The position numbers were made by a program, and so were the translations under genes. This document shows positions 57,112-60,164 of a DNA stretch of 64,000 nucleotides, in pieces (position 1 is the stretch's first letter; each line of letters begins with the position of its first letter). The notes under the pieces are model-generated. The model had not been told where the DNA came from, did not search any database, and saw only the letters and a program-made list of their open reading frames with translations. Origin of the DNA: Roseofilum casamattae BLCC-M143 (GTDB lineage Bacteria; Cyanobacteriota; Cyanobacteriia; Cyanobacteriales; Desertifilaceae); assembly GCF_030068455.1 (NCBI RefSeq), contig NZ_JAQOSQ010000007.1, positions 62,001 through 126,000 on the forward strand. The letters run 5' to 3'.

Positions 57112-57554
57112 TTAAACCTTGGGTAAGACAACGCGATGCTCTTGGTCTTGATATTTCCCAAACCGATCGTCATAAGTGACATGACAAGGTTCTCCTTCTA
57201 AAAAGAGCAACTGTGCAATCCCTTCATTTGCATAAACCCGACAGTCCGCGCTAGAAGAGTTGGATAATTCGAGGGTTAGATATCCCCGCCACCCTGCTTC
57301 GGCGGGGGTCGCATTGAGAATAATGGAACATCGAGCATAAGTGGACTTTCCCAAACAGATTGCGGTAATATTTGACGGAATAGACAATCGTTCTAAGGCA
57401 ACACCCAACCCATAACTATGAGCTGGGATGATAAAAAAATCTCCATATTCATCGTGATGCAGGGGTACGGATTCTAGATTGTCTGAATTAAAACATTTTG
57501 GGTTAACAACTGTCCCAGGAATATGCTTAAAGATGAGAAACTCTTTGGGACTTA
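57112..57554 (-). CDS. dcd: dCTP deaminase, exon 2 (gene split by group II intron)
   Basis: This segment encodes residues 55-201 of dCTP deaminase, from LSPKEFLIFKHIPGTVVNP through FIIPAHSYGLGVALERL and CLGKSTYARCSI to AGWRGYLTLELSNSSSADCR and the end GKYQDQEHRVVLPKV. It begins at T57554, immediately after the group II intron. Joined to exon 1 (60164-60002) the frame is continuous: 163 + 443 = 606 nt, i.e. 201 residues plus stop. Dcd makes dUTP from dCTP for thymidylate synthesis. A start at 57408 is internal and not real. Confidence 0.93.
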
Positions 57555-57560
57555 GTTAAA

Positions 57561-59336
57561 CTAAGCCGGAAGGTCACCCTTCCGACTCGTCTTCAAAACC
57601 GGACGTGAGACTTTCGCCTCATCCGGCTCCTCAAAAATTTGGCTATTGTCATTAGTACTAAAGTCTTGCAATGTTTTGGTATCGTGACAGTGACCGTGTA
57701 ATAGTTGGTAGTTTTTGTACTCATTCTTTCCTCCTTTGGATTTCGGAATGATGTGGTCAACTTCCATTACGTCCCCGTCCTTGAAGGTTAACCCACAGAT
57801 ATTACATTTCCCTTTTTGCTTCTTGAGAAGTTTCGAGATTTTGATCGGCATTTGAGGGTGTCTTCCTAATCGGGTTGCCCAATAGATATCATCTCCATCA
57901 AAAGGCGAGGCATTACCTCTAACCTTTGTATGCCGTTTTATTTCTGTATATCTTGGGTCGATTAGCTCGCAAGTGTCAGGTTCGCCAAATACCCAATTAT
58001 TACCCTCTTTTTGGAACCAATATTTCTTATTGACCCATTGAGAGCTTTTATTGTGATGTCTGCGGAGACCCCATCTTTTCAACTTCCAGAATAGTAAGTA
58101 TTGGATAAGACTAAAGGCTTCGTTGGCACATGATGTTGAATAGTAGTTGCACCAACCCCTAACGATCGGGTTGATTTCTTTTACTAGAACATCTTGTCTA
58201 ACTGCTACCAGTTTTTCTACCTTCGCAGCCAATGTGCGATAGACCCTTTGGATGCTATTCTTCGAGGGCTTGATAATAGTTTTGAACCCCATGAGTTTCC
58301 CCTGAGGGTTCTTACCACTAGTATGTCTGCCATGCTTATATTGCCTGATGTTGAAACCTAAGAAGTCAAATCCGGTTTTTCCGTTATAGGCTTCGTAGGT
58401 GTGAGTTATGCTCGTTTTTTCAGGCTTCAATTCTAGACCAATGTTTTCCAACCATTCCGAGATGATTGCCTTACATTGAAGGATAACTTCTAAGTCGTCG
58501 TGCAGAATAACAAAGTCATCTGCGTACCTGATAAGTTGTAACTTTTTCAGGTTAGTCAGCTTAGTTCCCTTGAGAGTCGTGGCAAATTCCTTAATTCTGT
58601 CTTCCATTCCGTGTAAGGCAATGTTAGCGAGTAATGGGGAAATTGCACCGCCCTGGGGAGTTCCTTCTTCTGTCGGGAACCATGCATTGTTGGACATAAA
58701 GCCTGCCTTGAGCCATACCTTGATTTGCCTCCTTAAGGAAGGGTAGGTATTGAGCTTATCGAGCAGTTTCTTATGGTCTATTTTGTCAAAGCATTGTGCT
58801 ATGTCGGCATCCAGCACGTATTTCGGTTTGAACCTAATTGAGCTGAATATTGCTTCTATAGCATCATGGCATCCTCTACCCGGTCTGAATCCATAGCTAT
58901 TCGGTTCAAAGACGGCTTCCCATTCCGGTTCTAGAGCCAGTTTCACTAGAGTTTGTTTTATCCTATCTTCAATAGTAGGAATACCTAGAGGTCTTTTCTC
59001 CGTTTTCCCTGGTTTTGGAATTTCAATTCTTCTTACCGGTTTAGCTTTACCATCCAGCTTGATGTTGTTAGCGAGTTTAAGTCTATTGCGGGAGTCTATG
59101 GATTTTACCCCATCCACCCCTGCGGTTTTTTTCCCTCGATTATCTTGGGTTACTTTCCTCGTTGCCAACAGCCGAGCAGACCGGGACTTACTGAGTAATT
59201 TCTGGAGCTGGCGAACTAACCTAACATTTCCACGACATTTAGCTCGATAAATTCTCTTTTGCAGCTTGAATACGTTCCGCTCGATTTTACTCCAGGGGAT
59301 AGCATTCCATTTATACCTCAGATTAACTGGGTTCAT
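57561..59336 (-). CDS. ltrA: Group II intron-encoded reverse transcriptase/maturase with HNH domain
   Basis: A 591-residue intron-encoded protein: N-terminal RT domain 0 (residues 1-90), RT core with QGGAISPLLANIALHGM and YADDFVILH (catalytic Asp pair near 270), maturase domain X about 350-440, and an HNH nuclease (CNICGLTFKDGDVMEVDHIIPKSKGG, near 510-540, then HGHCHDTKT). It promotes splicing and retrohoming of the intron. The last 23 or so residues are translated through domains V and VI (reading EEPDEAKVSRPVLKTSRKGD), so the ORF runs into the catalytic core, with its stop 6 nt before the splice site. It looks intact, chloroplast-like class. Confidence 0.93.
   Translation of the reverse strand: MNPVNLRYKWNAIPWSKIERNVFKLQKRIYRAKCRGNVRLVRQLQKLLSKSRSARLLATRKVTQDNRGKKTAGVDGVKSIDSRNRLKLANNIKLDGKAKPVRRIEIPKPGKTEKRPLGIPTIEDRIKQTLVKLALEPEWEAVFEPNSYGFRPGRGCHDAIEAIFSSIRFKPKYVLDADIAQCFDKIDHKKLLDKLNTYPSLRRQIKVWLKAGFMSNNAWFPTEEGTPQGGAISPLLANIALHGMEDRIKEFATTLKGTKLTNLKKLQLIRYADDFVILHDDLEVILQCKAIISEWLENIGLELKPEKTSITHTYEAYNGKTGFDFLGFNIRQYKHGRHTSGKNPQGKLMGFKTIIKPSKNSIQRVYRTLAAKVEKLVAVRQDVLVKEINPIVRGWCNYYSTSCANEAFSLIQYLLFWKLKRWGLRRHHNKSSQWVNKKYWFQKEGNNWVFGEPDTCELIDPRYTEIKRHTKVRGNASPFDGDDIYWATRLGRHPQMPIKISKLLKKQKGKCNICGLTFKDGDVMEVDHIIPKSKGGKNEYKNYQLLHGHCHDTKTLQDFSTNDNSQIFEEPDEAKVSRPVLKTSRKGDLPA
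57596..57629 (-). ncRNA. Group II intron domain V
   Basis: A 34-nt hairpin starting GAGCCGGATGAGG, with the GAAA tetraloop and ending CACGTCCGGTTT, the catalytic domain V signature. Domain VI follows to the 3' splice site at 57555, with hairpin arms around GGAAGG/CCTTCC. It is located inside the intron ORF. Confidence 0.92.
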
Positions 59337-60001
59337 AACTTGTTAACTGTTACTCGACACTTTACCTTCCAAATTTTCGCGAGTCTGTCAGCATATCCAT
59401 CTCCATTACAGAGAGGCTTTCGCTTTTGACTCAATCCTGTCTCTTATGTCCTTGCGCTGGTTACTACTCAACTCTCGACCTGGGTTGAGAGGCGCATAAG
59501 AGATTACCTCGTTCCTAATATCCATTTTTCGTTAACCTTAGAGTCTTCCTTTCCACCGAGAGTTCTTTTTGGGTACTAATAAAGAGATGCACCACCCCTT
59601 CATCTTTTGCTGCATTCTTCGACACAATACAGCCTTAACTCTATTGACTTTTGTCGCGCAGCCTAACAACCCGTTTTGGCTACTTTCTACGTGACGATGG
59701 GTTGTACAGAAGTTCGTCTCCTACTCATAGTTAACCTGCTAGCTGGGATTCTTCATCGGGTTTGAAGTTACCAACATTCCTTCCCGCTTCAACCGAGTTG
59801 ATGACCATTCGCCTCAGTTGGGGAAGTGCTTTCAGCCATGTACCTTGGCGAGAGGAGTTGTCTTATTGACTCACCTCTATGGATATTAAGTTGTCAATGT
59901 GTTGTTTTGATGCAATAAGATTTACTAAATCCTTTACATTGCCTTACACATTGCCCCGCGTCCTTGAGCATTACTACTCATTTAGCGGGAACGAGTCGCA
60001 C

Positions 60002-60164
60002 ATCGCAGATCGTAGCCATAGGAAGAGGCTCCATAACTTAAGACTTTTCTGGTGGTGCGATCGCCAAATTCTTCTGATTCGATGGTGCGGATTAATGATG
60101 GTTCAAAGGGTTCGATCATTCCCCGTTCTGCTTGGTCGGCAATCCACTTATCATTTTTGAGCAT
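60002..60164 (-). CDS. dcd: dCTP deaminase, exon 1 (5' part of split gene)
   Basis: This part starts at ATG 60164 and encodes residues 1-54 ([20 protein letters not shown] to SSYGYDLR). The exon ends with CGAT at 60002, where the intron GTGCG begins. Reading on into the intron gives the six residues CATRSR and a stop, so unspliced transcripts would yield only a 60-residue fragment. The last bases before the junction are the putative intron-binding site. Splicing is therefore required to make this enzyme of the dCTP-to-dUTP pathway. Confidence 0.93.

Follow-up and report, generated by a model that had tools for sequence, protein, structure and literature searches.

A group II intron interrupts the dCTP deaminase gene of Roseofilum casamattae at a site occupied in some relatives and empty in others

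The gene dcd, encoding deoxycytidine triphosphate (dCTP) deaminase, is interrupted by a genuine group II intron in the cyanobacterium Roseofilum casamattae BLCC-M143. We analysed 64,000 nucleotides of this genome, hereafter the window (RefSeq assembly GCF_030068455.1, contig NZ_JAQOSQ010000007.1, positions 62,001 to 126,000). It belongs to contig C7 of a 5.1 Mb assembly with 74 contigs and 98.22% completeness (genome G000). Both dcd and its intron are on the minus strand, as are all window features described below. It is highly probable that the intron stems from one old insertion and has been inherited vertically. The result would be a splicing-dependent dcd gene, an element with decaying mobility and at least two precise losses in relatives.

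Exon 1 (60002..60164) holds codons 1-54 and the first base of codon 55. It ends with SSYGYDLR and has homologous counterparts in the intronless, 198-codon dcd of three relatives (G006-G008). Exon 2 (57112..57554) supplies the remainder of codon 55 through to codon 201 and the stop, and contains a GKSTYAR motif. Between them, the intron (57555..60001) spans 2447 bases from GTGCGAC to TTTAAC. Its termini, GTGCG and AAC, fit the group II rule of 5' GUGYG and 3' AY. An initial annotation had placed the two halves of dcd around a full group II intron at 60164-60002 and 57554-57112, and all of its coordinates hold. It had also foreseen a seamless 201-residue enzyme. Consistent with this, the joined exons comprise 606 bases, equating to 201 codons and a stop, with no internal stops. 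Two cuts were translated and only that after 60002 kept the frame. Without splicing, the exon 1 frame meets a stop after 60 codons. Judged by family profiles, the joined product is a dCTP deaminase. It scores 80.9 bits against Pfam DCD (cut-off 27) and 109.8 bits against TIGR02274 dCTP_deam (cut-off 92.8). Its nearest solved chain in the PDB is 4dhk (E 1.2e-49).

We compared ten Desertifilaceae genomes (G000-G009), of which six (G000 and G005-G009) are from the same genus. The intron is present at the identical base of dcd in three of these six: G000, G005 and G009. The empty site in related strains, raised in the initial annotation, is exact in G006, G007 and G008. Here, CGAT continues directly into TAAG within a 198-codon gene. 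The dcd gene of G001, from another genus of the family, is intronless, and a search with dcd found no match in G002-G004. G005 carries a second group II intron of 2445 bases (GTGTG to TAAT) between residues GIA and QLL. Hence, dcd is in three pieces in this genome. The intron-encoded protein (IEP) of that second intron belongs to a distant lineage, unrelated to dcd intron 1. The neighbours of dcd also differ: rpoC1 in G006 and G007 (loci L034 and L035), and an M50-like gene, labelled by eye, in G000, G005 and G008.

A second intact dcd was sought in the G000 assembly and none was found. The Pfam family gives one match, to exon 2, and the joined protein gives two, one for each half. Across pairs of genomes in the genus, the ratio of nonsynonymous to synonymous substitution (dN/dS) is 0.03-0.17 for exon 1 (15 pairs) and 0.01-0.05 for exon 2 (14 of 15 pairs, with one saturated). 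These ratios are rough because many dS values exceed 1. Both exons are under purifying selection in intron-bearing lineages too. Since the exons join seamlessly and no intronless second copy was found, supply of the enzyme would depend on splicing, as first proposed. Purifying selection on both exons backs this.

The structure of the intron RNA is conserved. Catalytic domain V (D5; 57592..57632) matches Rfam RF04357 with 60 bits and shows covariation. The domain VI (D6) region, with the 3' splice site (57555..57591), forms a stem with one bulged A according to folding and pair counts. It lies within a match to Rfam RF00029, covering D5-D6, at 57631-57555 (57.2 bits, E 1.3e-8). The predicted branch-point A (57562) is the eighth base from the intron 3' end and is bulged in folds of all three intron-1 copies. 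We scored D5/D6 pairing in 15 hand-chosen introns. With the structure taken from the window's own fold, which biases toward pairing but not toward two-sided changes, 99.1% of 450 cells were paired and 13 pairs were altered on both sides. None of 500 shuffles attained this, and slid versions reached 47.1% at most.

Candidate exon-binding sequences (EBS) and the intron-binding sequences (IBS) they would contact were also located. IBS1 (60002..60008; CTGCGAT) forms the final bases of exon 1. Candidate EBS1 (59587..59593; intron 409-415, GGTGCAT) makes 5 of 7 pairs with IBS1. Among 563 aligned 7-mers in three introns it ranked first (18/21 pairs). Candidate EBS2 (59623..59628; intron 374-379, ATTGTG), about 30 bases from candidate EBS1, makes all 6 pairs with IBS2. 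It was the best of 1854 placements, scored on G000 and G009. The candidate pairs vary between species, with G-C versus C-G at position -5.

The IEP (57561..59336) is 591 amino acids long. It comprises RVT_N, the reverse transcriptase (RT) domain RVT_1 with a YADD motif, maturase domain X with GIIM, and an HNH domain. The match to TIGR04416 scores 325.2 bits (cut-off 300). The RT motif is YADN in the IEPs of G005 and G009. Among 111 RT motifs in relatives fitting the search pattern, a count outside which the window and G009 fall, 110 are YADDF or FADDF and the single YADNF is that of G005 (L017). In intron 1 of G005 (L032), 149 bases are inserted within the HNH region of the IEP, and a 27-base deletion removes the candidate EBS2 stretch. 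By eye, the insertion resembles a small transposable element, with a short direct repeat, ATATCAT, on either side. The only full copy of the intron in G000 is the one in dcd; an 80-base 3' fragment and two weaker pieces occur besides. The fragment, at C19:2105-2184, is a D5-D6 remnant sharing 90% identity with the 3' terminus of the dcd intron. The IEP stop, TAG (57563-57561), includes the predicted branch-point A, and the IEP frame traverses D5 and D6. In 21 of 83 scorable related introns, the frame ends within the final 12 intron bases. RNA conservation alone may explain a frame stop near the intron end.

The tree of the intron's IEP follows that of its hosts. The rpoC1 tree is ((((G006,G007),G005),(G008,G009)),G000), with support of 68 for the position of G005. 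The three intron-1 IEPs form one clade (support 1.0), within which G005 and G009 group together, branching as in rpoC1. Identity to G000 is 0.818-0.819 for the intron, 0.780-0.802 for the dcd exons and 0.812-0.814 for rpoC1. Between G005 and G009, it is 0.873 for the intron and 0.886 for the exons. We also inspected exon sites differing between G005 and G008. G009 agrees with its sister G008 at 5 of 7 such sites within 30 bases of the junction, 25 of 28 within 100 bases and 55 of 68 overall. Hence, there is no sign of co-conversion, or of recent homing from a G005-like donor. Outside the genus, the nearest IEP (L254) lies upstream of another gene and lacks an open 3' exon; it was set aside.

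The likeliest history starts with one gain, followed by a change of RT motif in the ancestor of G005 and G009 and by subsequent losses, one in the ancestor of G006 and G007 and one in G008. We propose that codon 55 of dcd received an intron, probably of CL type, a single time in an ancestor of the genus, and that this intron was vertically inherited thereafter. The dcd transcript would shed the intron by lariat splicing, aided by the maturase domain of its own IEP, before full dCTP deaminase could form. The intron may have been kept as a splicing-competent resident because dcd is single-copy and under selection. Mobility functions appear dispensable, being intact in G000, affected at the RT motif in G005 and G009, and broken in the HNH region of G005. 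Later, precise loss would have occurred at least twice, in the lineage of G008 and in the G006/G007 ancestor. Most simply, this would involve recombination with cDNA of the spliced mRNA or with an intronless allele.

Several observations weigh against this proposal. Vertical inheritance requires two losses among six genomes, and the supports of the trees are modest (68 for G005 with rpoC1; 36-81 for the dcd exons). Identity between G005 and G009 is lower for the intron (0.873) than for rpoC1 (0.918). In the window intron the RT and HNH motifs are intact, and this copy could still be mobile. Moreover, the RT and HNH regions of the IEP, too, have a dN/dS of no more than about 0.1, with no sign of relaxed constraint on the mobility domains. 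Constraint on the maturase only was considered and dropped; dN/dS by domain fails to separate RT and HNH from X, which is saturated in both pairs involving G000. Loss of the EBS2 stretch could impair splicing in G005. The exon-binding assignments are themselves tentative because the window EBS1 makes only 5 of 7 pairs, a level common by chance (also reached by 53 of 674 7-mers in the first 680 bases of the intron), and swapped pairings are about as good. Thus, the window candidate pairs as well with the G009 exon as with its own, and for the G005 intron the G009 exon is a better partner (7 pairs) than its own exon (6).

Group II introns home site-specifically. Hence, the dcd site could have been invaded separately by closely related introns in G000, G005 and G009, and never in the intron-free relatives. 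Three separate gains are possible; in the rpoC1 tree, genomes with the intron are intermingled with genomes lacking it, and the RT and HNH domains are intact in the window copy. Even so, we regard repeated homing as improbable. The IEP tree follows the host tree, and divergence of the intron is close to that of the exons. In addition, the altered RT motif common to G005 and G009 should block mobility by their own enzyme. G009 bears no trace of co-conversion, and the window's genome has no other full copy. A different reading is that dcd is a decaying pseudogene, broken by a mobile element, in a cell that manages without it. In its favour, the gene has no match in 143 of the 291 genomes of the order, nor in G002-G004. 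However, this reading can hardly be right. Both exons are intact in all three intron-bearing genomes with dN/dS of 0.01-0.17, the frame is restored exactly, and two-sided changes preserve the intron structure.

The initial annotation called dcd an essential-type gene. This is overstated, since dcd is matched in only 148 of the 291 genomes, a few of them weakly. In this family the gene may matter more, because no dUTPase family was found. PF00692 was detected in none of the ten family genomes (control, 11/14). PF08761 was likewise found in none of the ten, although this search is weak, its control matching in 1 of 14 with none over the cut-off. A dUTPase that is split or diverged could escape both family searches. 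ThyX, which converts deoxyuridine monophosphate (dUMP) to thymidylate (dTMP), was found in seven of the ten genomes. Its gene is in two pieces within one long frame in G000, G006, G008 and G009, and whole in G005, G007 and G001. The G000 protein contains the intein splicing domain PF14890 (49.1 bits, cut-off 35.8) and an HNH domain (37.8, cut-off 21.4). The thyX intein locus is at C22:24384-26381 (L263), with ends set by eye at SFDVQ/CLAAN and VVHN/SNRY. The ribonucleotide reductase domain PF02867 is full length, stop-free and present once per genome in all six same-genus genomes; none was found in G001.

With an intron in dcd and an intein in thyX, both steps of the predicted dTMP route in G000 need self-splicing. 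The intron could therefore be a control point, at which splicing efficiency sets the supply of dUMP and thymidine triphosphate according to conditions; the initial annotation had raised such control for dUTP production. This is compatible with vertical inheritance of a splicing-dependent dcd, and the seemingly single-copy dcd and lack of a detected dUTPase family favour it. We nevertheless give it only a slight chance. Three of the six genomes of the genus have dcd without the intron, and G005 combines two dcd introns with an uninterrupted thyX. More broadly, and tentatively, the element may have gone through an organelle-like passage from mobile element to an immobile, vertically inherited resident retained for splicing only. 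The stages would be the intact intron of G000, the changed RT motif of G009, and G005, where the changed RT motif is accompanied by a broken HNH region, a deleted EBS2 and a second intron. Loss, in G008 and in G006/G007, would complete the series. If true, the predicted route from dCTP via dUMP to dTMP in G000 would need two self-splicing chemistries, at the RNA level for dcd and at the protein level for ThyX, and could act as a switch on thymidylate supply.

Relatives of the IEP are widespread in the order, occurring at E 1e-60 in 189 of the 291 genomes. Of 107 IEP loci, 87 have D5/D6 and a candidate 5' site. Taking at each locus the 5' site giving the longest open join, 48 of these 87 have at least 25 open codons on each side. 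In at least four of the 48 joins (L156, L181, L240 and L261), the left side itself consists of IEP sequence, which makes them spurious. Host genes include nrdB (twice), dnaB, nrdJ, mgsA, truB, cutA, pdxJ and genes for a desaturase, an aminotransferase and ferredoxin (twice). We checked 20 hand-picked proteins against Pfam in two sets of ten, two of the second set being 3' exons only. A domain above cut-off spanned the junction in nine of the first ten; the exception was nrdJ (23.8 versus 26.4). The same was true for six of the second ten (thyX, dut, ssb, an FAD protein, an AsnC-type regulator and DUF2887), with mgsA and a PMT_2 protein not spanned. The initial annotation held that bacterial group II introns usually avoid housekeeping genes. 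This stands as a general rule but not for cyanobacteria. PMC4424553 names them as the exception, along with the lineages CL and ML; many conserved genes are hosts to related introns. The same source describes CL2 introns as almost confined to cyanobacteria.

The dcd introns fall in a clade of 26 IEPs (support 0.853) with introns of thyX (L023-L025), ssb, parA, nrdJ, truB and cutA, and intergenic ones. Exclusive targeting of DNA-metabolism genes is not supported as a rule, since hosts also include truB, cutA, pdxJ, the desaturase, aminotransferase and ferredoxin genes, and intergenic sites. In L021, ssb is interrupted twice. At L023:5003-11487, from a Microcoleaceae metagenome-assembled genome (MAG), thyX has two group II intron ends and the adjoining dut dUTPase gene has a third intron. 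At L146:891-1556, a group II intron interrupts the gene for the small subunit of ribonucleotide reductase; a group I intron lies about 290 bases past the intron end, perhaps in the same gene. At L152 (G035), the 5' flank is holA-like and the 3' flank gnd-like by eye, indicating intron-intron recombination or MAG misassembly. At least a dozen related introns are in TnpB-like transposase genes, identified by eye only (for example L155, L157, L159 and L185).

Inteins also enter dcd. The corresponding pattern, half of dcd inside a long open frame, occurs in at least 14 of the 148 genomes with dcd. Three such candidates were tested; two have PF14890 and one has only a LAGLIDADG domain. At L264 and L265 (G047 and G103), the intein-bearing dcd adjoins a thyX whose frame, by eye, also enters intein-like sequence. 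The dcd insert of G047 is at a second site, TPAEA/C. We found no significant tendency for insertions to mark unusually conserved Dcd positions. In a conservation ranking over 30 Dcd proteins, the two intron sites stand at 0.349 and 0.282 (P 0.17 for the two), and the four intron and intein sites taken jointly are not significant either (P 0.21). A phage vehicle for the intron was not borne out either: three pattern hits in viral contigs yielded no confirmed IEP relative. Of 38 pattern hits to viral dcd, 32 loci have matches of 480-627 bases, with no room for an intron or intein.

The Roseofilum genomes provide a compact natural experiment on the taming of a bacterial group II intron: across six related genomes, one site displays it intact, degraded, doubled and lost. 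In cyanobacteria, dcd joins nrd, thyX and dut as deoxynucleoside triphosphate (dNTP) genes with group II introns. The data also carry a warning for annotation, as dcd in the order and thyX in the genus, when broken by introns or inteins, may be called pseudogenes or missing. No report of a group II intron in a dCTP deaminase gene, or of a Roseofilum intron, was found in the open-access literature searched, most subscription papers lying outside the search.

The dcd intron is a well-documented new case of a phenomenon already known in cyanobacteria. A 2003 paper reportedly described group II introns within a dNTP gene, several per gene, in what is said to be Trichodesmium. The likeness is the location of group II introns inside such a gene. 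Here, by contrast, the host gene is dcd, and a single genus lets one follow where the intron is present or absent, how its RT changed and where it was lost. Liu and Yang (2004) reportedly described a bacterial ThyX with both an intein and a group II intron. That protein acts in the same pathway, from dUMP to dTMP, and the thyX introns of L023-L025 share the 26-member IEP clade of the dcd introns. In the window's genome, however, the intein sits in thyX and the intron in dcd. The dCTP deaminase of cyanophage vB_AphaS-CL131 carries an intein at residues 132/133, according to PMC6293099, which also cites MacGregor 2013 in connection with an intron-containing dCTP deaminase. Both cases involve a self-excising element in dcd. 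Conversely, the phage relies on protein splicing at 132/133, whereas RNA splicing at codon 55 is predicted here. Finally, organellar group II introns occupy housekeeping genes, as noted in PMC4424553. They resemble the dcd intron in vertical inheritance, loss of mobility and splicing constraint. Unlike them, the Roseofilum intron is bacterial and its maturase is still encoded within the intron.

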